Positions 12,446 through 20,538 of a stretch of 21,189 nucleotides of DNA are shown here, piece by piece (position 1 is the first letter of the stretch; every line of letters starts with the position of its first letter). The position numbers and the translations under genes are program-made. The stretch is from positions 1-21,189 of IMG/VR virus record IMGVR_UViG_3300050821_005339, one strand, 5' to 3'. Source of the DNA: a virus. Below the pieces are notes generated by a model that saw only the letters and a program-made list of their open reading frames with translations, made no database searches and was not told where the DNA came from.

Positions 12446-12453
12446 AAAAACAC

Positions 12454-12473
12454 TTCCTGTTACGTTCCTGTTA
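12454..12473 (-). repeat. Tandem duplicated ribosome-site segment
   Basis: The nonamer TAACAGGAA (minus strand) occurs twice, at 12465-12473 and 12454-12462, 11 nt apart. The inner copy is the likely ribosome site for the DUF5681 gene; the outer copy includes the stop codon of the 49-residue gene upstream. This may be a short slippage duplication. Confidence 0.5.
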
Positions 12474-12620
12474 TGTAACTATTTTAACATCTTCTTCATA
12501 AAATTCATAGCATAATTTTTTAACGTACTCACTATCGTTCTGTTTTCCTTCACTAATTGCTATCAGGTACGCTTGGAGTGCGCATTTGTGAAATAGCATT
12601 GAAGGATTGTCCATTAACAT
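12471..12620 (-). CDS. Small overlapping protein, 49 residues
   Basis: A frame starting at ATG 12620 codes for 49 residues and stops at 12471. Its first 70 or so bases overlap the 3' end of the methyltransferase gene in a different frame, and the rest fills the otherwise empty gap before the small terminase. The composition is protein-like: a helix NPSMLFHKCALQAYLIAISE followed by SEYVKKLCYEFYEED. An AAAGAGG site sits 6 nt before the ATG. It ends just before the duplicated ribosome site of the next gene. I do not recognise a family. The fit of start, ribosome site and stop to the gap supports a real gene. Confidence 0.6.
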   Translation of the reverse strand: MLMDNPSMLFHKCALQAYLIAISEGKQNDSEYVKKLCYEFYEEDVKIVT

Positions 12621-13812
12621 GAAAAGCCTCTTTACCTGTGAATTTTTCCCATCTTTTTATTATGACATCACAATATTTCGGGTCTAATTCCATGCTCGTA
12701 TTTGCACGGCTAAGCTTTTCACATGCAATCATTGTGGAGCCGGAACCACCAAAACAATCATGAACTAAGTCACCAGCCTTACTACTATTTTTTAAAGCTA
12801 TTTCAATAAGCTCTACTGGCTTTTGAGTAGGATGCACATAGTCACCAGTTGCACCGCGTGACATTGACCATATATCCGATTGACTTTTATCACCATACCA
12901 AGCGCCGCCTTTTATATAAAATATAAATTCGTGTTGCGGTCTGTAATTTGCATTACCTAAACCAATGGATTTTTTATCCCATACTATGCATGCAGTAGGA
13001 TGCAAATCCACATTAATCAATCCAGCCTCAAACTCAGCGTATGTACGCCAAGGGAAACAAACATAATACGCCGCGCCTTCTTTTGCGTTGATTTTGGCAG
13101 CTAATAAAGAATCCGCTATCATGTCGATTAAATCGTTGCCACGCAAATCATCACCTATAATTTCACCATGAGCCTTAACTTTTACGCCGCCTGTTTTTTT
13201 ATCTAATGAATGATTGCCTCTTGCCCGCCCACCACCATAACTCATTCCATAAGGCGGATCCGTCCACAACATATCAATTTTTTGACCATTCAAAAGCTCA
13301 TCAACATCCGAAGAAACAGTACTATCACCGCAGCGTAACCGATGATCACCAAGTATCCACATATCACCAAGCATATTGATAGGTCTTTCAGGAACTTCAG
13401 GTATTTCGTTTTCATCGCAAAGCCCTTCCATTTCTGGAGCCCAGTCAAGTTCTTTTTCATCAAAACCCCAATCTAATAAATCAGATACATCAAAATTATT
13501 TGCCAACATATCAAAGTCAAATTCGCCAGTATTTTTATTCAAACGCACATTGAGTTCTTTTTCCTTTTCAATAGGTAAATTAACCTCAATACACGGAAAC
13601 TCTTTCCACTTCAAAGCCGATGCCGCCTTAATTCTTTGATGCCCACCAACAATAACATTAAACCTGTCGGGATTAACATTTATCACCGCCGGCTCTACAC
13701 ATTCAAAACTATCAAGCGAGCGCTTCAATTGCTCGAACGCATCCTTATTAATCTGGCGTGGATTATATTCCGCCGGGATTAAATCCTTTATTATTCTTTG
13801 AACTATTTCCAA
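12553..13812 (-). CDS. ParB-domain / DNA methyltransferase fusion
   Basis: About 419 residues. The N-terminal 100 residues form a ParB-like domain with DLIPAEYNPRQI and GGHQRIKAAS motifs. The rest is an amino-methyltransferase of beta-type order: TDPPYG (motif IV) near residue 189, and HDCFGGSGST (SAM-binding motif I) near residue 357, with the probable target-recognition segment between them. The DPPY motif points to N6-adenine or N4-cytosine methylation. Phage copies of this fusion often protect the genome from restriction. The start is uncertain: TTG at 13827 has no ribosome site, while TTG at 13812 has GGGTGG about 8 nt before it; I chose 13812. It overlaps the next small gene at its 3' end. 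Confidence 0.85.
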   Translation of the reverse strand: MEIVQRIIKDLIPAEYNPRQINKDAFEQLKRSLDSFECVEPAVINVNPDRFNVIVGGHQRIKAASALKWKEFPCIEVNLPIEKEKELNVRLNKNTGEFDFDMLANNFDVSDLLDWGFDEKELDWAPEMEGLCDENEIPEVPERPINMLGDMWILGDHRLRCGDSTVSSDVDELLNGQKIDMLWTDPPYGMSYGGGRARGNHSLDKKTGGVKVKAHGEIIGDDLRGNDLIDMIADSLLAAKINAKEGAAYYVCFPWRTYAEFEAGLINVDLHPTACIVWDKKSIGLGNANYRPQHEFIFYIKGGAWYGDKSQSDIWSMSRGATGDYVHPTQKPVELIEIALKNSSKAGDLVHDCFGGSGSTMIACEKLSRANTSMELDPKYCDVIIKRWEKFTGKEAFHVNGQSFNAISQMRTPSVPDSN

Positions 13813-13816
13813 TTTA

Positions 13817-13969
13817 TTACCACCCAAAATGCATTAATTGATTTTGTTTTTTAGCACATTTATAACACGCTCTTGATTCATACAAAGGATGATTTCTTAA
13901 AGGAACTCATCGGCTCCAATCATGTATGCATGCTATTTGTTTAAAAAATCGTTTTATAATTTTATTCAT
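13817..13969 (-). pseudogene. Zinc-ribbon-like mini-gene interrupted by in-frame TGA
   Basis: The ATG at 13969 overlaps the upstream stop as ATGA, so the gene is coupled to the gene before it. Reading continues through an in-frame TGA at codon 21 (13907-13909) to TAA at 13817, giving a 50-codon frame. Before the TGA it has Cys-x-His (CIHDW); after it has Cys-x-x-Cys (ACYKCAKKQ), together a plausible small zinc-binding fold. The TGA sits where a Trp would be natural (SR-stop-VP). Elsewhere in this window TGA acts as a normal stop, so mutation or readthrough is likelier than a changed genetic code. Truncated, the product would be 20 residues. Confidence 0.5.
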
Positions 13970-14217
13970 TTTTTATCTCTTTCAGCAAGCATCATATCGG
14001 CAATTTCATAACTAGATTTTGCAACTAAACTTCCATAAGTATTGCCCTCAATGGCATATTCTTTCATATGGCCTCGAAAATCCGGAGTAATCATTGATGC
14101 CATAGCTTTAGCAGCAAAATAATCTCTTAATTCCATTCCCTGATAAAAAACATCTATTGATCTGTCGTTCATGACTTCATGATGAGTTATTTTTCCGGGA
14201 AATGCATGTTGTTTCAT
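13966..14217 (-). CDS. Small conserved phage protein
   Basis: The 83-residue product resembles a common phage small protein of unknown role, with GMELRDYFAAKAMASMI in the middle and a SSYEIADMMLAER end. The ATG at 14217 follows AGGTTGAAT; a TTG two codons upstream is less likely. Its TGA overlaps the next gene's ATG. No enzymatic motif is visible. Confidence 0.7.
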   Translation of the reverse strand: MKQHAFPGKITHHEVMNDRSIDVFYQGMELRDYFAAKAMASMITPDFRGHMKEYAIEGNTYGSLVAKSSYEIADMMLAERDKK

Positions 14218-14224
14218 ATTCAAC

Positions 14225-14281
14225 CTATTTTAAATAATGTGAACGCAGCCAAGGAGATTTAATTCTAAACCGCGCCCACAT
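14225..14281 (-). CDS. Possible 18-residue peptide
   Basis: An ATG at 14281 opens an 18-residue frame rich in Arg and Trp, ending in TAG at 14225 within the ribosome site of the next gene. The upstream AAGAG is a weak site. It fits the gap exactly, but a frame this short can arise by chance, so it is a low-confidence call. Confidence 0.25.
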   Translation of the reverse strand: MWARFRIKSPWLRSHYLK

Positions 14282-14298
14282 ACTCTTTGGAGAGTTTC

Positions 14299-14673
14299 TT
14301 AAATTTCTGATTTTACTTTATCGTAAACAGCTTTTAGTTCTTCAAAAGTCCAGTGTGTTGCACGCTCTGTATTTCTAACTATTTCAGAAATTATCTGTGC
14401 AATTTTGTTATGAGGAACAATAACTTCCTGATTATAAATCGTTTTAAAATGATAATCGGCACTAGCAAGTACAGCTGCTTTATCAGCTTCGGCTTGATGT
14501 TGTTCTGGAGTTAATTCAACTGGCGCAAGCGCAATCGGACTATCAGAACCACTTCCCACTTCCGGAGCTGCTTCAACAGGCATCGTTTCAGTTGGGGCAA
14601 CTGCAGCATTATCTACAACCGGAACTTCCGCTGAAACTTCTGGTATAGTATCGTTTGTTATTATTGTCGTCAT
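14299..14673 (-). CDS. Acidic protein with disordered N-terminus
   Basis: This 124-residue product has a Thr/Pro/Glu/Ala-rich, presumably disordered first half, followed by a helical region with TPEQHQAEADKAAVL, an NKIAQIISEIVRNTE helix and a FEELKAVYDKVKSEI end. I do not recognise a family. AAAGGA lies before the ATG at 14673, and a strong leftward promoter candidate lies at 14699-14727. A 12-base copy of the promoter's TATAGTATCGTT element is found within its first codons. Confidence 0.65.
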   Translation of the reverse strand: MTTIITNDTIPEVSAEVPVVDNAAVAPTETMPVEAAPEVGSGSDSPIALAPVELTPEQHQAEADKAAVLASADYHFKTIYNQEVIVPHNKIAQIISEIVRNTERATHWTFEELKAVYDKVKSEI

Positions 14674-14698
14674 TTTAATATCCTTTGTTTAAATTGTT

Positions 14699-14727
14699 AT
14701 ATTATAGTATCGTTACATTTAAGTCAA
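14699..14727 (-). promoter_or_regulatory. Leftward promoter with operator-like spacer
   Basis: On the minus strand TTGACT (14722-14727) and TAATAT (14699-14704) are 17 bases apart, a good sigma70-type promoter for the gene starting at 14673. The spacer holds a diverged copy of the window-wide 17-bp element (14703-14719). Confidence 0.6.
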
Positions 14728-14730
14728 ATT

Positions 14731-15348
14731 TTAGTCTAAACCTTCACCTTCATAAAATTCAGTAGCATCAGCGCGGGTTATGGCTATAAATAAATTGCCA
14801 TTCCCAAATTTCACGCTTTCTTTAGAATTGTAAAATCCAGTTGTTTCAAGTCTCATGCCAATTCGATACCAACCCTTATACATCTCTGAAAGCTTATAAA
14901 CTTTCTTTTCAGCTATTTCCGTTTTGGAAACTTCTGATTTTTGTTCAACCTGTCCAAGCATCTCCTCACCATAAAAATCTTTTATATATTTCATAATTGT
15001 TTTTGATTTACGGTATGTAAGTATACATTCCTCGCGCCCACTATCTTTCCATAAAAAGATACGAGCCATGCCAGTTCCGATAATTCCATTACGACTTTTT
15101 ACATCTACTACTAAATTTCTATCAACAGGAATATCAGCAGTCCCATCATGAGTTATCCAGCCATCATTATTAGGCTGTTTTTCTTCTGAACTATTAGGCT
15201 TTTCCTTATTGTTGGCAATATGCTCAAACACAGCCTCTAATGCTGCTTTCATGGAAAATTCCATTGAACCTTCATATTCAGCAAATATATCACAAGCAAG
15301 ATTCAAAATCTTATTAGTAACTTCTATCTTTTCTTTTTTATATTCCAT
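14731..15348 (-). CDS. Uncharacterised phage protein, 205 residues
   Basis: The ATG at 15348 (MEYKKEK) is chosen because a GGAG site lies about 8 nt upstream; a longer frame begins 66 nt earlier but has no support. The N-terminal part is helical; a Ser/Glu/Asn-rich linker follows; the C-terminal part has a WITHDGTADIPVDRNLVVDV segment that resembles short domains found in many phage accessory proteins. No catalytic motif is recognised. The start overlaps the preceding gene by 11 nt, and the ribosome site sits in the loop of a small hairpin (15348-15364), which may be a target for the CsrA-like protein encoded upstream. Confidence 0.6.
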   Translation of the reverse strand: MEYKKEKIEVTNKILNLACDIFAEYEGSMEFSMKAALEAVFEHIANNKEKPNSSEEKQPNNDGWITHDGTADIPVDRNLVVDVKSRNGIIGTGMARIFLWKDSGREECILTYRKSKTIMKYIKDFYGEEMLGQVEQKSEVSKTEIAEKKVYKLSEMYKGWYRIGMRLETTGFYNSKESVKFGNGNLFIAITRADATEFYEGEGLD

Positions 15349-15595
15349 CTTTATTCTCCAAAGAAATTCCACAATCTTGCATAACTTCTTCCATTCCAGA
15401 TATATGTCCAGCAATAAAAAACCCTACAGCCATAAAACAAATTGGAAATTGCAAAATTAAAAATGGTATTAATGGAATCGTAAATTTTGTAAATAATGCA
15501 ATTAAAACATTAGACATAATCAGATGCGCCCAACAAGACTTAGGAACGCGTCCCAACATAAACTTAAGCCAATTAAAAAACGTAACTTTTTCCAT
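15338..15595 (-). CDS. Small membrane protein
   Basis: The 85-residue product has two hydrophobic segments (about residues 26-44 and 45-64), the second rich in Pro, Phe and Cys, so it is likely a two-pass inner-membrane protein. The N-terminus is mildly basic and the C-terminus is acidic. I do not recognise a family. It follows the CsrA-like gene and is preceded by a hairpin (15595-15611) that presents the GGAG ribosome site in its loop. A promoter with a 17-bp operator-like spacer lies at 15627-15655, so it could also be transcribed separately. Confidence 0.6.
   Translation of the reverse strand: MEKVTFFNWLKFMLGRVPKSCWAHLIMSNVLIALFTKFTIPLIPFLILQFPICFMAVGFFIAGHISGMEEVMQDCGISLENKDGI
15348..15364 (-). 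promoter_or_regulatory. Hairpin presenting ribosome site, possible CsrA-type target
   Basis: On the minus strand TCTTT and AAAGA form a 5-bp stem around the loop GGAGAAT, which holds the Shine-Dalgarno GGA directly before the ATG at 15348. CsrA proteins bind such GGA loops. The next gene upstream has an almost identical element. Confidence 0.55.
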
Positions 15596-15611
15596 CTTAC
15601 TTCTCCAAAGA
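15595..15611 (-). promoter_or_regulatory. Hairpin presenting ribosome site, possible CsrA-type target
   Basis: On the minus strand TCTT and AAGA pair around a loop with TGGAGAAGT just before the ATG at 15595. It matches 15348-15364 in size and in the TCTTTGGAGAA core, and lies immediately downstream of the CsrA-like gene. Confidence 0.5.
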
Positions 15612-15626
15612 TTTTCCGTAAACTAA

Positions 15627-15655
15627 CTATAATATAGTATCTGGTAAACTGTCAA
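15627..15655 (-). promoter_or_regulatory. Leftward promoter with exact 17-bp operator spacer
   Basis: TTGACA (minus strand, 15650-15655) and TTATAG (15627-15632) flank the element at 15633-15649 exactly. The promoter lies in the 3' end of the CsrA-like gene and would drive the membrane-protein gene. Confidence 0.6.
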
Positions 15656-15836
15656 CTCCTTTATTATATTTTTTTTCATAAATTTCTCCACGATCCACTA
15701 TAACGCTTTTTGGAAACGAAAAACCAAGCTCCACACTGCCAGTTCTCATTTTCATTACTTTTATTTTTATTAAATCGCCATCAGGCAAAGTAATAATAAT
15801 ATCCGTTTTGTATTTATTTCTTAACAACCTTAACAT
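15627..15836 (-). CDS. CsrA-like RNA-binding regulator
   Basis: This 69-residue product has the size and strand pattern of CsrA/RsmA, the homodimeric post-transcriptional regulator that binds GGA motifs at ribosome sites. It begins ML as CsrA does, has a strand DLIKIKVMKM, then SVELGFSFPKSVIV and DRGEIYEKKY. The conserved ELG.xxPK.vxVxR.EIY block is clear, including the Arg that contacts RNA in CsrA. The N-terminal part (LLRNKYKTDI) is diverged. AAAGGA precedes the ATG at 15836. The two genes downstream carry hairpin ribosome sites with GGA in the loop, consistent with it regulating its own operon; that link is inference. Confidence 0.7.
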   Translation of the reverse strand: MLRLLRNKYKTDIIITLPDGDLIKIKVMKMRTGSVELGFSFPKSVIVDRGEIYEKKYNKGVDSLPDTIL

Positions 15837-15884
15837 GATACATTCCTTTTATTGATTATTATTACAAACTTAAAAAGTCTCGTT

Positions 15885-16166
15885 TTAAAGCCCTACAGCC
15901 TCCAATCCCTCCCTCATGGTACGTGCGGTCATTTTTTCCGTTTTCGTTGCCACAACCCCTATTTCCGTTTGAACGTTGGCCACTTCAATCTCTTTTGCTC
16001 CCAACGCCGCCAATCTTTTTTTAACTCCACCATATCGCCTTCCGGTTAACCTCATCAATTTTGCGTAACTTGCACCAGCCTCCCAGCCTTCGAGCAAAAT
16101 CTTATCTTCCTCAGGCGTCCAGCGGGTGTATTTTGGTATTTTCGTGCCGTATTTAGATTTTCTCAT
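15885..16166 (-). CDS. Myb/SANT-like DNA-binding protein
   Basis: The ATG at 16166 (after AAAAGGAAA) gives 93 residues; a longer frame upstream lacks a site. Residues 12-55 form a Myb/SANT-like helical domain: YTRWTPEEDKILLEGWEAGA, then KLMRLTGRRYGGVKKRLAALG, a spacing typical of a helix-turn-helix with a basic recognition helix. It probably binds DNA, perhaps as a phage regulator. Its start overlaps the stop of a coding-like stretch that continues from the preceding gene in another frame. Confidence 0.65.
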   Translation of the reverse strand: MRKSKYGTKIPKYTRWTPEEDKILLEGWEAGASYAKLMRLTGRRYGGVKKRLAALGAKEIEVANVQTEIGVVATKTEKMTARTMREGLEAVGL

Positions 16167-16237
16167 GGTTGTTTTCCTTTTGTAAATTGTAATAAATTTT
16201 CCCACCAAACAATGCCGTTAAGTTTTTCATAATCCTC
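16163..16237 (-). other. Out-of-frame coding-like tail after the replication-organiser gene
   Basis: After the CCC-TGA stop of the preceding gene at 16236, the +1 frame stays open for 24 codons (EDYEKLNG, WWENLLQFTKG) and ends with TGA exactly in the ATGA of the next gene. No ATG, GTG or TTG starts it. It may be an extension made by +1 slippage at CCC-TGA or the remains of a frameshifted C-terminus. A 14-base direct repeat (16173-16186 and 16246-16259) flanks it. Confidence 0.4.
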
Positions 16238-16850
16238 AGGGTGACTTTCCTTTTGTAAAACTTATAGTCCACGCCAAGAACGCCTTCGCAGGATACCTCG
16301 GAATTTCCTTGCCTTGCACATAAGCATTAAACTTTGATATAAGAAAATCTATGCAATACCCTCCTGCTTCTGATTTAACACAAGCTCGGTCTAAGTCGGT
16401 CAAAAACTTATCCACATCAAAATCAAAACCTTTTTTAAAAGGATCTTGATCCTTTATATTTAAGTCTGATTCTTGGATCTGATTCTTAGGCAGGAGTAAC
16501 TCAGGAGTTGACTGGAGAGTGACTCCTGAGTTTCTTGTATGTTCGTCCCGCAATTCCAATAACTTAGGGCAAATGATTTTCAGAATGTTTCCGTTTTGTT
16601 CTAGTTTTATTTTCCCTTCATTCTGACAATGAACCAGAAATGAATTCAGTTTGTTTTTCTTTCCTTTCAATAATGATTGCCATTTCACCCACGAATGTTC
16701 AGCATAACAATCGGTGCTTTTATCCATTTTTGTCGCAATAATTTCAAGCAACTTGAACCAACGCCCATAACCTTCCCATCCGTAAATCTCTTCAAGATTT
16801 TCTACAAAAGAGTCGTTACTAGCATTACTCATATGCTTAAACCATTTCAT
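16236..16850 (-). CDS. Replication-organiser-like protein
   Basis: The 204-residue product begins with MKWFKHMSNASNDSFVENL, followed by EIYGWEGYGRWFKLLEIIA, the signature of phage replisome-organiser / DUF4373-like N-terminal domains. These bind the phage origin and recruit helicase; winged-helix structure is usual. A flexible linker with NQIQESDLNI follows near residue 117, and a C-terminal helical part ends with FLAWTISFTKGKSP. The start overlaps the HNH gene's stop by 1 nt. The family assignment is by N-terminal pattern. Confidence 0.65.
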   Translation of the reverse strand: MKWFKHMSNASNDSFVENLEEIYGWEGYGRWFKLLEIIATKMDKSTDCYAEHSWVKWQSLLKGKKNKLNSFLVHCQNEGKIKLEQNGNILKIICPKLLELRDEHTRNSGVTLQSTPELLLPKNQIQESDLNIKDQDPFKKGFDFDVDKFLTDLDRACVKSEAGGYCIDFLISKFNAYVQGKEIPRYPAKAFLAWTISFTKGKSP

Positions 16851-17326
16851 TATTTTGCCTCACGTATCTTTTTGGCTTCTGCCATTTTAATACGCATATC
16901 ATCCCAGAACATTCTCTGGCAATCTTCCGATACAATAGAGAAAGACAATTCATCCGCACCAGGCTCATTTACACCTTGGAACTCAGGCAAAGATTCAAGA
17001 GCCTCTGCTATTTTATATAGCTGCAAAGACAAGAAACCCCTTCTTGCAAAGGCTCTTAATAATTGCTGTTGTGCGTATTTTATATGACCGCCTTCTGCGC
17101 TATGACAAGAATCACACAACGTTATTAATACGTTATTATCATATTCCCACGGCTTCTTGTTATAGATGTAATATTTATGATGAACATGCAAAGTTCTTTC
17201 ATCCGCAAAACAATATTGACATATCCACTCGTCACGATTGAGAATTTCCAATCGTTTTTTCTGCCAGCGCGGGTCTAGTAATAATTTTGAATATTCAGAT
17301 TTTGGTGGGAATTTTGACTTAGACAT
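16850..17326 (-). CDS. HNH endonuclease
   Basis: The 158-residue product carries an HNH nuclease domain: Cys-x-x-Cys at CQYC near residue 36, the VHHKYY motif near residue 48 with the catalytic His, WEYDNNVLITLC near residue 59 with Asn, and CDSCH closing the zinc/HNH unit. The C-terminal 70 residues are helical and lack a known domain. Phage HNH proteins act in packaging or as homing nucleases; with its position by the replication gene, either is possible. AAGGT precedes the ATG at 17326. Confidence 0.85.
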   Translation of the reverse strand: MSKSKFPPKSEYSKLLLDPRWQKKRLEILNRDEWICQYCFADERTLHVHHKYYIYNKKPWEYDNNVLITLCDSCHSAEGGHIKYAQQQLLRAFARRGFLSLQLYKIAEALESLPEFQGVNEPGADELSFSIVSEDCQRMFWDDMRIKMAEAKKIREAK

Positions 17327-17369
17327 ATACCTTATCTCTCCGTTAGAGGTTATCCGTTTAAAATCTTCC

Positions 17370-17430
17370 TTGGGAGAAAGAGAGAGGCTGTAGAACGGAA
17401 CTACGCGCTTGCAAACGCCGCCTCTCCCAA
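17370..17430. ncRNA. Candidate structured RNA element
   Basis: A GC-richer 61-base segment in an otherwise AT-rich 177-base gap has inverted outer arms: TTGGGAGA (17370-17377) pairs with TCTCCCAA (17423-17430), or alternatively GAGAGGC (17382-17388) pairs with GCCTCTC (17420-17426). Two inner hairpins are possible (GTAG/CTAC and a GCG-TTGCAA-type palindrome). No run of T follows, so it is not a standard terminator. Strand and function are unknown. Confidence 0.35.
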
Positions 17431-17453
17431 TTTAATCTACTACTCCTATCGCA

Positions 17454-17486
17454 AATAGCAACACATATCTCGCGAATATCGCTATT
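17454..17486. other. Hairpin in the gap after the repressor gene
   Basis: AATAGC (17454-17459) and GCTATT (17481-17486) are inverted around an inner ATAT/ATAT pairing, about 20 bases after the repressor stop on the minus strand. It may serve as weak termination or RNA protection. Nothing else is visible in this part of the gap. Confidence 0.3.
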
Positions 17487-17503
17487 ATTTTGCAACTCTT
17501 AAT

Positions 17504-17872
17504 TTAACCAGCCTTAGCCAAAGTTGATATCATTTTGCTGATGCCTTCTTGCACATCAGGATGCTTTATTTTCCTGAAATTCCTAGCCACATAAAGAGCC
17601 ATTTTCTCTTGATAATCAGGCTGTGGTGTGGGCTCTCTTTCTATGTCATCAAAAAAATACATCACAGGTAATTTAAGAACTTTTGCAATCTTTGTTATCA
17701 TCTCGCATGTAATTCTATCCTTGGCACTTTCGTACTTTTCTAATTGCTGATGACTTATGCCAAGCCCTTCAACGGCCTGTGTTCTTGACATGCCAAGTGC
17801 CATGCGTTGCACCGCAATCTTCCTGCCCATATTGATTGAAAAATTACTTTTTACGTTTTTTACTCTAGCCAT
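17504..17872 (-). CDS. Xre-family repressor-like regulator
   Basis: The 122-residue protein has a helix-turn-helix Xre domain at about residues 15-73: GRKIAVQRMALGMSRTQA, then VEGLGISHQQLEKYESAKDR and ITKIAKVLKLPVMYFF. The pattern LGISHQQLEKYE plus a YFF end is common in alphaproteobacterial regulators. A short C-terminal tail without a protease domain means cleavage-type induction like lambda CI is unlikely. AGGTGAAAT precedes the ATG at 17872. Upstream is a leftward promoter with an operator-like spacer and a 9-bp perfect inverted repeat, so it may control itself. Confidence 0.8.
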   Translation of the reverse strand: MARVKNVKSNFSINMGRKIAVQRMALGMSRTQAVEGLGISHQQLEKYESAKDRITCEMITKIAKVLKLPVMYFFDDIEREPTPQPDYQEKMALYVARNFRKIKHPDVQEGISKMISTLAKAG

Positions 17873-17880
17873 ATTTCACC

Positions 17881-17909
17881 TATTAGTTAAAAGTTGTTAA
17901 TAACTAATA
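17881..17909. promoter_or_regulatory. Perfect inverted repeat upstream of the repressor
   Basis: TATTAGTTA (17881-17889) and TAACTAATA (17901-17909) are perfect inverted arms with an 11-base centre, lying between the promoter and the start codon of the repressor. This is a good operator candidate for autoregulation. Confidence 0.5.
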
Positions 17910-17936
17910 CGTATATAGTTTGTGGTAATATGTCAA
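17908..17936 (-). promoter_or_regulatory. Leftward repressor promoter with 17-bp operator spacer
   Basis: TTGACA (minus strand, 17931-17936) is exactly 17 bases from a weak TACGTA -10 box. The spacer is the window-wide element copy at 17914-17930 (TATAGTTTGTGGTAATA). It would drive the Xre gene. Confidence 0.6.
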
Positions 17937-17953
17937 CTAGTAATTAAATTAAA

Positions 17954-18337
17954 TTATTTTAATTCTATTTTACAAAATTCTTTAAATTCATCGAGGGATT
18001 TTATAATAATTGGATAAATATGAAACATGCCAGCGGCTTTATTCCAGACAAGTTTTTGCTCCGTTGTTAAATCATTTTTTTGATACTTAAATTCAATCAG
18101 AAATAACTTTGATTCGATAGGATTTGCCACGCCGATGGTTAAATCGTAGACGCCTTTTTCATAACCATCTAATTTCATTGCATTGGCAACGTGTGGCTGC
18201 ACACGACCATGATCTGGAGGACATGTCCAGTATAGAAACGGATAACGCTTTAATTGATTATAACCAAGCTGCTCGCGTAAATGGGCTATACATGGCCTAC
18301 GTACAAGTTTACGTTCAAACTGGTTCTTTCTGGCCAT
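17954..18337 (-). CDS. VRR-NUC-type nuclease
   Basis: The 127-residue protein resembles VRR-NUC, a stand-alone PD-(D/E)XK nuclease domain common in phages: GVYDLTIGV near residue 82 supplies the Asp, and FLIEFKYQKNDLTTEQ near residue 98 supplies the Glu-x-Lys pair and typical downstream helix. Such proteins likely resolve branched DNA. It overlaps the upstream HTH gene by 23 nt, so the two are co-expressed. It is unusual to find this nuclease between two regulators. Motifs appear intact. Confidence 0.75.
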   Translation of the reverse strand: MARKNQFERKLVRRPCIAHLREQLGYNQLKRYPFLYWTCPPDHGRVQPHVANAMKLDGYEKGVYDLTIGVANPIESKLFLIEFKYQKNDLTTEQKLVWNKAAGMFHIYPIIIKSLDEFKEFCKIELK

Positions 18338-18554
18338 TTTTCATTTGCTCTATAACTTCCGGTGTGTGACCATATAAATCATTGGCAGTAACTTCACCTT
18401 TAGTCAACTTAAAGACGGCATCAACCATTTTCGAGCGAATAGTTTTGCGTTGACGGAGTTCATACCTGCAAATAGTTGCCCAGCTAACTTCTAGCTTTTC
18501 GCCAAGCACCTCCAAAGTCCATCCCTGTTTTTTCCGCCACGCTCTTAATTCCAT
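18315..18554 (-). CDS. Small Cro/CI-like HTH protein
   Basis: The 79-residue product is nearly all helix-turn-helix: LRAWRKKQGWTLEVLGEKL, then EVSWATICRYELRQRKTI and a trailing helix with LTKGEVTANDLY. It resembles Cro-type or Xre regulators, binding DNA as a dimer. It begins a divergent regulatory region that contains an inverted pair of the 17-bp element, so it is one candidate to bind it. The ribosome site is weak (GGTAAAATAG) and overlaps one of these elements. Confidence 0.75.
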   Translation of the reverse strand: MELRAWRKKQGWTLEVLGEKLEVSWATICRYELRQRKTIRSKMVDAVFKLTKGEVTANDLYGHTPEVIEQMKNGQKEPV

Positions 18555-18556
18555 CT

Positions 18557-18606
18557 ATTTTACCATAATTATACTTAATATATACATTGTATAGATTATG
18601 GTAAAT
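18557..18606. promoter_or_regulatory. Inverted pair of 17-bp operator elements
   Basis: Between divergent genes, TATAATTATGGTAAAAT (minus strand, 18557-18573) and TATAGATTATGGTAAAT (plus strand, 18590-18606) face each other as an inverted pair. The first overlaps the leader of the Cro-like gene. It is the only place where two copies form a palindrome. Confidence 0.6.
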
Positions 18607-18613
18607 AAGTCAA
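18586..18613 (-). promoter_or_regulatory. Leftward promoter of the HTH/nuclease operon
   Basis: TTGACT (minus strand, 18608-18613) and TACAAT (18586-18591) are 16 bases apart, with the element copy 18590-18606 in the spacer. It would drive the Cro-like and VRR-NUC genes. Confidence 0.6.
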
Positions 18614-18631
18614 CAAGGTTTAATTATGCTC

Positions 18632-18659
18632 TTTACATTGATATAGTTTATGGTAAATG
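18632..18659 (+). promoter_or_regulatory. Rightward early promoter with operator element
   Basis: TTTACA (18632-18637) is followed after 4 bases by the element TATAGTTTATGGTAAAT (18642-18658), whose end gives a weak TAAATG -10 box at 16 bases spacing. It precedes the first rightward gene. Confidence 0.5.
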
Positions 18660-18696
18660 TTGAAAGACAACCAATAGTTAATTATAGGTAATAATT

Positions 18697-19014
18697 ATGA
18701 AACCCAAGAAAAAATCTAATAAATTTGTTAGATCAAAGCGATTCCGCAAGATGTACTTTGCACAATGCTCTGAAAACTATAATATAGATAACGATTTGGA
18801 ATATCTATCATTTAGAAACGAACCTAATGCTGATATGGCTTATTTAGAAGCCATAATAGGTGAATATGGCTGCATTAGCAACCAAGAGACATATAAGGCG
18901 CATTATTCGGAAATTAAAGATCGTTACTTTATGGATTTAGGTCAATGCGCTGCCTGTTTATATCAAACTGATGCATATACATATTTGCCACTGCGTAAAG
19001 GTTTTAGAAAATAA
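18697..19014 (+). CDS. Uncharacterised early protein, 105 residues
   Basis: The first rightward gene after the control region. The product begins with a very basic KPKKKSNKFVRSKRFRK stretch, likely nucleic-acid contacting, followed by an acidic helix and four Cys (three as QC, GC and CAAC-like positions) without a clear zinc motif. It ends LPLRKGFRK. AGGT precedes the ATG at 18697. Function is unknown; position suggests an early or immunity-region product. Confidence 0.6.
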   Translation: MKPKKKSNKFVRSKRFRKMYFAQCSENYNIDNDLEYLSFRNEPNADMAYLEAIIGEYGCISNQETYKAHYSEIKDRYFMDLGQCAACLYQTDAYTYLPLRKGFRK

Positions 19015-19027
19015 TTACAAATAGAGC

Positions 19028-19056
19028 TTGACTGTTTATATAGTTTATGGCAAATT
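19028..19056 (+). promoter_or_regulatory. Rightward promoter with operator element
   Basis: TTGACT (19028-19033) is followed by the element at 19039-19055 (TATAGTTTATGGCAAAT), with CAAATT as -10-like box at 17 bases. It serves the 49-residue gene and following genes. The leader then contains AGTTAAC and AAGGAG, shared with the module at 19992-20050. Confidence 0.5.
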
Positions 19057-19088
19057 GCAATTACAAGTTAACAAAAAGGAGATTTAAA

Positions 19089-19238
19089 GTGCCGGACAAT
19101 ATAATCCAATATCATGGAGAAATGTCTTTTTACCATCCCGCATTGCAAATAGCATTAGCTGAACTTCAAAAACTAGAAGGCGAGGAACGTAAATTAAAAA
19201 TGGAAGAAATAGCATATTTAAGCAGGAGAAAATCATGA
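19089..19238 (+). CDS. Small early protein, 49 residues
   Basis: The GTG at 19089 is chosen because GGAG lies 7 nt before it; the in-frame ATG at 19047 lies inside the operator element and has no ribosome site. The product (helical ALQIALAELQKLEGEERK) has no recognisable family. Its TGA overlaps the next gene's ATG as ATGA, so the two are coupled. Confidence 0.6.
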   Translation: MPDNIIQYHGEMSFYHPALQIALAELQKLEGEERKLKMEEIAYLSRRKS

Positions 19239-19435
19239 GTGAAGTAACCGCGTGGCTAGCAGTTTTAGTTTTTATATTTATATATTTTACACCAACAATT
19301 GAAGCCTTTGAACGCAAACATAACAACGCTGGGGCAATATTTATATTAAACCTATTTTGCGGCTGGACATTTTTTGGCTGGGTTTTGGCCTTGGTATGGG
19401 CAAATACTGATAATATTAAAAAGGAGATAAAGTAA
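19235..19435 (+). CDS. Superinfection-immunity-type membrane protein
   Basis: The 66-residue product matches the Imm_superinfect pattern: an N-terminal membrane helix (WLAVLVFIFIYF), a short loop with EAFERKHNNAGA, then IFILNLFCGWTFFGWVLALV, the NxxxGWTxxGWxxALVWA signature of the family. In T4 and relatives, Imm proteins sit in the inner membrane and block DNA entry of related phages. The ATG overlaps the preceding stop. It could protect the host from superinfection during infection or lysogeny. Confidence 0.8.
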   Translation: MSEVTAWLAVLVFIFIYFTPTIEAFERKHNNAGAIFILNLFCGWTFFGWVLALVWANTDNIKKEIK

Positions 19436-19533
19436 TGAAATTAAACATTAAAAAAATAATCATTGAAACAATAATAATGTTAATTGGAGTAGGTGCTTTG
19501 ATAATGTTGGTGGTTGAATTGCCATTGAAATAA
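19435..19533 (+). CDS. 32-residue membrane peptide
   Basis: The ATG at 19435 overlaps the stop of the immunity protein by 1 nt (TAATG) after an AAGGAG site. The product has a basic N-terminus (KLNIKK) and one long hydrophobic helix (about residues 12-27). Single-pass peptides next to Imm-type proteins suggest a membrane role, but no family is recognised. Confidence 0.65.
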   Translation: MKLNIKKIIIETIIMLIGVGALIMLVVELPLK

Positions 19534-19544
19534 GGATGATTAAA

Positions 19545-19976
19545 ATGCCTAAATATTATTATAATGATGCTTTGATTGCGGCTTGGATGGCAATAAATTT
19601 TAATGTTATGTTTACTAAAGAAATTATAGCAGGAATGGCACAAAGTATACATCATCATGATAGTCCAGTTGATTATGATATAGTTATTAAAATTGCAAAA
19701 AATCGTAAATGGGATAAACGTCAATCTCGATATAAAATACCATATTACATTCATCCAGATTGTTATGAAATGCTTAAGCCGCAAGTTGGTGATTTAATTG
19801 AATATTCAGCACATAAAACTGAATATATTGCTGGCCGCGATAGAATCCATCACGAAGCATCAATGGATGGATTTATTAGTTTAGTAGATTTTAATAAATA
19901 TTGGGGTGATAAAGAACTGGCTCCAATAATCCAACGCAACGAAAAAGCCTTTTTCATGCCGGAAATAAGTGAATAA
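19545..19976 (+). CDS. Uncharacterised early protein, 143 residues
   Basis: The ATG at 19545 follows TAAGGATGATTAAA, with AGGA at proper spacing; a second ATG at 19536 lies within the ribosome site. The product begins YYYNDALIAAWMAINFNV, a segment like those in several phage proteins of unknown role, then a His/Asp-rich region (HHHDSPVDYD), a KWDKRQSRYKIPYYIHPDCYE central part and a helical end. No catalytic motif is certain. Confidence 0.65.
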   Translation: MPKYYYNDALIAAWMAINFNVMFTKEIIAGMAQSIHHHDSPVDYDIVIKIAKNRKWDKRQSRYKIPYYIHPDCYEMLKPQVGDLIEYSAHKTEYIAGRDRIHHEASMDGFISLVDFNKYWGDKELAPIIQRNEKAFFMPEISE

Positions 19977-19991
19977 TAATAAAAATAATCC

Positions 19992-20019
19992 TTTACTATT
20001 ATATATTATATGGTAAATT
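19992..20019 (+). promoter_or_regulatory. Rightward promoter with operator element
   Basis: TTTACT (19992-19997) and TAAATT (20014-20019) are 16 bases apart, with the element copy TATATTATATGGTAAAT at 20002-20018. Leader AGTTAAC then AAAGGAGG leads to the ATG at 20051. Confidence 0.5.
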
Positions 20020-20050
20020 GCTATTTATAGTTAACAAAGGAGGTTTAAGA

Positions 20051-20389
20051 ATGAGTTATAAAAAATTACAAGAAAAACTTGATAGATTAAGACTAAATAT
20101 GAATCACGAACATAAAGATGAATTCGATGATTTTATGAATAAAATCATTGATAATCTTAATGAAGAAATTGCACAAACATATAAAAATTTTAATCATCAA
20201 GGAAATATATTGGCTGTTTATGGTTGTTTAATAGATAGTTTGCTTCACAGTTTTGGTGATGTATCGAATGCAAAAGGCATAACAAAAGAACAAAGAAAAA
20301 TTACAGCTACATTTGTTCAAGATGCTCTTATTGTTATTAGAGAAACTTTAAAAATTGCCGAACAAACTAATAATAGAAATTTATCCTAG
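20051..20389 (+). CDS. Uncharacterised helical protein, 112 residues
   Basis: The start at ATG 20051 follows a strong AAAGGAGG site; an upstream TTG frame is not supported. The product is almost all helical: YKKLQEKLDRLRLNM, DEFDDFMNKIIDNLNEEIAQ and a C-terminal ALIVIRETLKIAE. It is soluble, with no known family. It is the first gene of a module leading to the Sak4-like ATPase, so a role in DNA replication or recombination is possible but unproven. Confidence 0.65.
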   Translation: MSYKKLQEKLDRLRLNMNHEHKDEFDDFMNKIIDNLNEEIAQTYKNFNHQGNILAVYGCLIDSLLHSFGDVSNAKGITKEQRKITATFVQDALIVIRETLKIAEQTNNRNLS

Positions 20390-20397
20390 GAATAATC

Positions 20398-20538
20398 ATG
20401 CCAGATCAACAATATTACGACCATTACATGAGTGAATTATGGGAAAAAGAGAAATTGAAAAATCAAGACCAGAATTGTCAACACTTTGGGGAGGCGAAAG
20501 AATGGAAACAAAAGTCAAATCAGTTACAAAAGGCGTGA
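20398..20538 (+). CDS. Small early protein, 46 residues
   Basis: The ATG at 20398 follows AGGA. The 46-residue product is helical and charged (MSELWEKEKLKNQDQN), ending in TGA at 20538. Its last 37 bases overlap the Sak4-like gene, and that gene's GGAGG site lies within it, suggesting coupled translation. No family is recognised. Confidence 0.55.
   Translation: MPDQQYYDHYMSELWEKEKLKNQDQNCQHFGEAKEWKQKSNQLQKA

Follow-up and report, generated by a model that had tools for sequence, protein, structure and literature searches.

A divergent CsrA-family protein in the early region of a phage, encoded beside two genes with near-identical leaders

Phage-encoded CsrA proteins are common and one of them, by knock-down, matters for plaque size, but few of the RNAs that they target are known. 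A divergent CsrA gene lying beside two genes with paired, GGA-rich leaders offers a cheap test case for whether such a protein acts on phage mRNAs or on the host only. This question is raised by IMG/VR record IMGVR_UViG_3300050821_005339, a linear viral fragment of 21,189 bases with 37% G+C, all of which was analyzed (the window). An earlier note on this DNA had read the locus either as an autonomous post-transcriptional switch or as a way to hijack the Csr system of the host.

The minus strand of the fragment carries a contractile-tail structural module comprising tail sheath, capsid (PF09950), portal (PF06381), Mu F-like head protein, terminase and ParB-methyltransferase, and to the right of this module lie short early genes, an HNH gene, a replication-initiation-like protein and two HTH proteins. 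The phage is contractile-tailed and probably temperate. The csrA-family gene is located in the early region, flanked by a Myb-like ORF (15885-16166) and by the gene that we call gene 2 (Table 1). Elsewhere in the fragment (12553-13827, minus strand), an N4/N6 DNA methyltransferase is fused to a ParB-like N-terminal domain, its start codon being uncertain. Searching genomes with the terminase returned one Desulfobulbus MAG contig as the sole match, which is too little to name a host. Three viral records encode portals 56-58% identical to that of this phage and have names sharing the source number 2786546892, which suggests several related prophages in one host genome.

The interval 15338-15836, to which the locus had been assigned, does span csrA and gene 2 (15338-15595), but the start codon of gene 3 is the ATG at 15348 and not the TTG of the mechanically called ORF, and this gene is most simply translationally coupled to gene 2. 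For gene 2 we found no Pfam family over the cut-off, no PHROG and no viral relative. Gene 3 has no better than weak matches, to PHROGs of unknown function (PHROG 9174, E 5e-5 over residues 55-116), and phage and viral sequence searches returned no relatives.

Table 1. Features of the csrA locus and of the early region.
Feature	Position	Strand	Basis or remark
csrA-family gene, 69 aa	15627-15836	minus	ORF; PF02599; PHROG 9500; alignments; Foldseek
Gene 2, 85 aa, predicted helical membrane protein	15338-15595	minus	ORF; AlphaFold helices 6-15, 19-74
Gene 3, 205 aa	14731-15348	minus	ATG start at 15348 overlaps gene 2 stop
Gene 2 leader copy, GGAAAATCTTTGGAGAAGTAAGATGGAA	15590-15617	minus	Shine-Dalgarno GGAG; includes start codon
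Gene 3 leader copy, GGAATTTCTTTGGAGAATAAAGATGGAA	15343-15370	minus	inside coding end of gene 2
Predicted sigma-70-type promoter, TTGACA-18-TATAGT (11/12)	15626-15655	minus	last codons of csrA; reads into gene 2
Operator-like repeat, TTTACCAGATACTATAT	15632-15648	minus	within spacer of the promoter inside csrA 3' end
Operator-like element, all copies	15632-15648, 17913-17929, 18589-18605, 18641-18657, 19038-19054, 20001-20017		immunity/early region and csrA 3' end
HTH proteins, two	17504-17872, 18315-18554

The 69-residue protein is a real, divergent and intact member of the CsrA family, and the only CsrA in the record. Its identity had been proposed from the block ELG..PK.VIV.RGEIY in the minus-strand ORF 15627-15836, and this assignment held: in a Pfam profile search residues 1-55 scored 39.1 bits against PF02599, above the curated cut-off of 27, and PHROG 9500 ('CsrA-like regulator') matched with an E-value of 4e-7. 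The score lies far under the NCBIfam equivalog cut-offs for cellular CsrA, which marks the protein as a divergent family member. In alignments with bacterial and phage CsrAs, to which its identity is 27-43%, residues M1, L2, L4, R6, G38, P42, K43, R49 and E51 are kept, and all of these except M1 and L2 are invariant among the aligned CsrAs. L4, R6, P42, V47, R49 and E51 correspond to L4, R6, P37, V42, R44 and E46 of CsrA, and the RNA-binding residues L4, R6, V42, R44 and E46 of CsrA/RsmA are all retained in two alignments; L4 and R44 have been named as particularly critical for RNA binding (PMC7652899). The equivalents of R7, H43 and E45 are replaced by N, D and G, respectively, and the protein has a 5-residue insertion before beta-2 and a C-terminal tail of 14 residues.

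AlphaFold modelled the monomer with moderate confidence (pLDDT 68), placing strands at residues 12-16, 22-31 and 34-40, with a fairly confident three-strand core. Structure prediction, which the earlier note had proposed as a check, turned out favorably in one respect, as the top 12 Foldseek matches in the PDB were all CsrA/Rsm chains (prob 0.60-0.96), but the E-values were weak (0.14 at best) and the model is that of a monomer. In the CsrA dimer, strands 1 and 5 from opposing monomers pair (PMC7652899), and weak E-values are expected for a single chain from such an intertwined dimer, yet they are not decisive. The predicted fold is thus supportive of the five-strand CsrA architecture, but not conclusive.

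Phage-encoded CsrA is already widely documented, and its presentation as a novelty was overstated. Besides the PHROG family, E. coli CsrA has matches in 85 records of the phage collection (a few of these, the Salmonella and Acinetobacter entries, appear to be bacterial contigs and not phages), and there are published surveys and a published knock-down. Sobrero and Valverde counted csrA in 30 of 2,517 phages (PMC7366521); Campa et al. surveyed GenBank and IMG/VR, proposed host manipulation, including that of CRISPR-Cas, as a role for phage CsrA, and reported that its presence correlates with the presence of CsrA in the host (PMC8450108); and coliphage PTXU04 formed smaller plaques when its csrA homologue was knocked down (PMC11879866).

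Among relatives of this phage, as defined by portal similarity, four carry csrA: L145, L146 and L147, with matches over the Pfam cut-off (3/37 records with a related portal), plus L074, detected by tblastn. None of the 30 records with a related terminase (0/30) had the gene. csrA is a recurring accessory gene in this phage lineage, and in all four relatives its neighbors are short genes unrelated to those described here, with different leaders. The gene directly after csrA in L145 (1677-1877) encodes a small hydrophobic, probably membrane protein, like gene 2; the two are not homologous, and the likeness is possibly a coincidence. Close relatives of the 69-residue protein were found in neither viral contigs, genomes nor plasmids, and its best phage tblastn match was 44% identical over 53% of the protein.

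We consider it probable, with considerable room for doubt, that the protein serves as an accessory regulator of host RNAs, that genes 2 and 3 are controlled mainly at transcription, and that their leaders represent a duplicated ribosome-binding site. A divergent yet intact CsrA-family protein, carried as an accessory gene beside replication genes, would dimerize and, in infection or lysogeny, bind host transcripts that contain GGA or the CsrB/RsmZ-type sponge RNAs of the host, which would shift host translation in favor of the phage. Hijacking of the host Csr system is plausible here, but it is the accepted proposal for phage CsrAs generally. In its stricter form, in which the phage CsrA titrates the host system, mainly binding sponge RNAs or forming mixed dimers with host CsrA and having no phage targets, it draws on the precedent of plasmid RsmQ in Pseudomonas (PMC9928087), on the correlated presence of phage and host CsrA (PMC8450108) and on the retained RNA-binding residues. 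However, an identity of only 27-43% to other CsrAs makes mixed dimers uncertain, and we regard titration as rather unlikely.

Near-identical leaders had been reported for genes 2 and 3, and we confirmed that they agree at 24/28 nt (15617-15590 versus 15370-15343), with TCTTTGGAGAA identical in both. Their ungapped score of 18 exceeded the maxima of 15-16.5 in three shuffled windows, and among 5,343 pairs of leaders taken from the same genome, over 41 phage sequences, this pair was the most similar, with two pairs reaching 23 identities; because the pair was picked for its similarity, a fair reading is about one such pair per 41 phage sequences. No enrichment of CANGGANG was found. The GGA conserved in both leaders is that of the Shine-Dalgarno sequence. 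The leader copies flank gene 2, and the second of them encodes residues at the C terminus of the gene 2 product, an arrangement that insertion of gene 2 together with duplication of the ribosome-binding site would explain. Most simply, an insertion of gene 2 before gene 3 would have duplicated a strong ribosome-binding site and so given rise to the near-identical leaders.

The same leaders could instead form an autonomous switch, in which the phage CsrA would bind GGA-loop hairpins at the starts of genes 2 and 3 and repress or set their translation, as a post-transcriptional circuit within one operon. Besides the 28-nt similarity, the highest of all 5,343 pairs, both leaders contain three GGAs in 34 nt, which is seen in about 2% of background leaders. 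As the leaders are copies of one another, this count is one observation and not two; it is nevertheless a point against the reading that we favor, since a CsrA-target reading would predict such an accumulation.

Hairpins with GGA in the loop, claimed for both start codons, could be recovered in part. The minimal stem, built around the shared 11-mer, is unstable (+0.5 to +1.4 kcal/mol) and would engage the A of GGA in a base pair. The favored alternative stems (AUCUU/AAGAU and UCUUUG/UAAAGA) are weak; they place the GGA of gene 2 in a loop of 9 nt and have the first G of the GGA of gene 3 paired. The ensemble probability that GGA lies fully within a hairpin loop of 5-10 nt is 0.24 for gene 2 and 0.03 for gene 3, and 8.8% of 296 phage control leaders reach 0.2. 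From -30 to +3, folding energies differ from those of mononucleotide shuffles by no more than about 1.2 s.d.; when longer stretches are folded, gene 3 lies about 3 s.d. lower than its shuffles. Such marginal hairpins, common in controls, argue against a switch, although CsrA binding tolerates weak stems (PMC7652899) and bare GGA in hairpin loops is also among the ligands of plasmid RsmQ (PMC9928087).

CsrA SELEX ligands always contain ACA and GGA, with an ANGGAN hexaloop as the structural consensus (PMC7652899), and known targets combine A(N)GGA at the Shine-Dalgarno sequence with three or more sites (PMC4066749). Against the SELEX consensus, both leaders match at 6/12 at best, a score reached by 45-50% of controls. 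Both have UUGGAG and not A(N)GGA as the Shine-Dalgarno core, the published target list (PMC4066749) has UUGGA among neither its primary nor its secondary sites, and neither leader presents GGA in an ANGGAN hexaloop or a comparable hairpin loop. In favor of CsrA binding, gene 2 has ACGGA upstream of its Shine-Dalgarno core and both genes have AUGGA at the start codon, and a looser published window (-30 to +5) would count those. Between -50 and +30 there are two sites in gene 2 and two in gene 3, and gene 2 has three only when positions to -100 are included (read-through transcript). With target criteria modelled on PMC4066749, neither leader qualifies on its own transcript, whereas the tail-fibre and HNH leaders of the same phage do. 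The description of the leaders as exactly the sites at which CsrA blocks translation was thus not borne out, and we judge an autonomous switch to be unlikely.

A comparison across 20 other phage or viral csrA loci does not support the idea that phage CsrAs as a rule target neighboring genes: leaders downstream of csrA averaged 0.87 GGA each against 0.80 for the remaining leaders at these loci, and consensus scores were equal, in a rough test that covered one or two genes downstream, took start codons mechanically and included some loci that look bacterial. As genes 2 and 3 are without homologues, there are no homologous leaders whose conservation would speak for the switch. A search for a CsrB-like sponge RNA yielded nothing credible in Rfam and no striking A(N)GGA clusters. 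The terS leader (12446-12475, minus strand) contains two CsrB-like CAGGA elements (AACAGGAACGTAACAGGAAGTG) and is more CsrA-like than the leaders of genes 2 and 3, although ACAGGAHG occurs at about chance frequency in the window.

Sequence elements in the 3' end of csrA suggest another layer of control. The predicted near-consensus promoter there is the best-scoring promoter-like site in 14200-20500, where the number of such sites (39 versus 29.1 expected) makes it a prediction only. Its spacer holds a variant of a 17-nt operator-like element (consensus TTTACCATAAACTATAT) that occurs six times in the window versus 0.27 expected, a count reached in none of 100 shuffles. The other five copies are found at promoter-like positions, one upstream of the first HTH gene (17913), two (18589 and 18641) in the divergent intergenic region at the second and two between rightward genes (19038 and 20001), and the repeat looks like a phage operator. 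Two of the copies belong to a 40-nt repeat (83% identical; 19036-19075 and 19999-20038) upstream of two rightward gene groups, which combines the operator-like element with a GTTAACAAA tail. With an operator-like repeat inside the csrA-internal promoter, genes 2 and 3 would share the transcription factor of the early genes, and they are more probably switched at transcription, through a putative promoter and an operator-like sequence common to early promoters, than by CsrA.

Both layers may also operate within the phage, with CsrA acting via the paired GGA leaders in addition to the operator-bearing promoter inside csrA, a two-layer switch that we find quite improbable. A degenerate CsrA without function in RNA control, as the divergent sequence, the insertion before beta-2 and the change of the H43 and R7 equivalents to D and N might suggest, is very improbable, as every other diagnostic RNA-binding residue and the open frame are kept and the PF02599 score is well above the cut-off. 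The evidence favors an ordinary accessory regulator, one that most likely acts on host RNAs.

Compared with the bacterial CsrA/RsmA family (PF02599), the protein is alike in domain, length and diagnostic RNA-binding residues, but differs by its low identity (27-43%), the insertion of five residues before beta-2, the C-terminal tail and the D and G that replace H43 and E45. With other phage CsrAs (PHROG 9500; Vibrio, Pseudomonas and Burkholderia phages; coliphage PTXU04_00028) it shares a small csrA gene in an early or accessory position of a tailed phage, yet it is divergent from all of them, and its gene neighbors are unique to this phage. Whereas the protein described here is divergent, plasmid RsmQ (pQBR103) has been characterized experimentally and behaves like chromosomal Rsm proteins (PMC9928087); the two are alike in being CsrAs of mobile elements, and RsmQ reprogrammes host translation.
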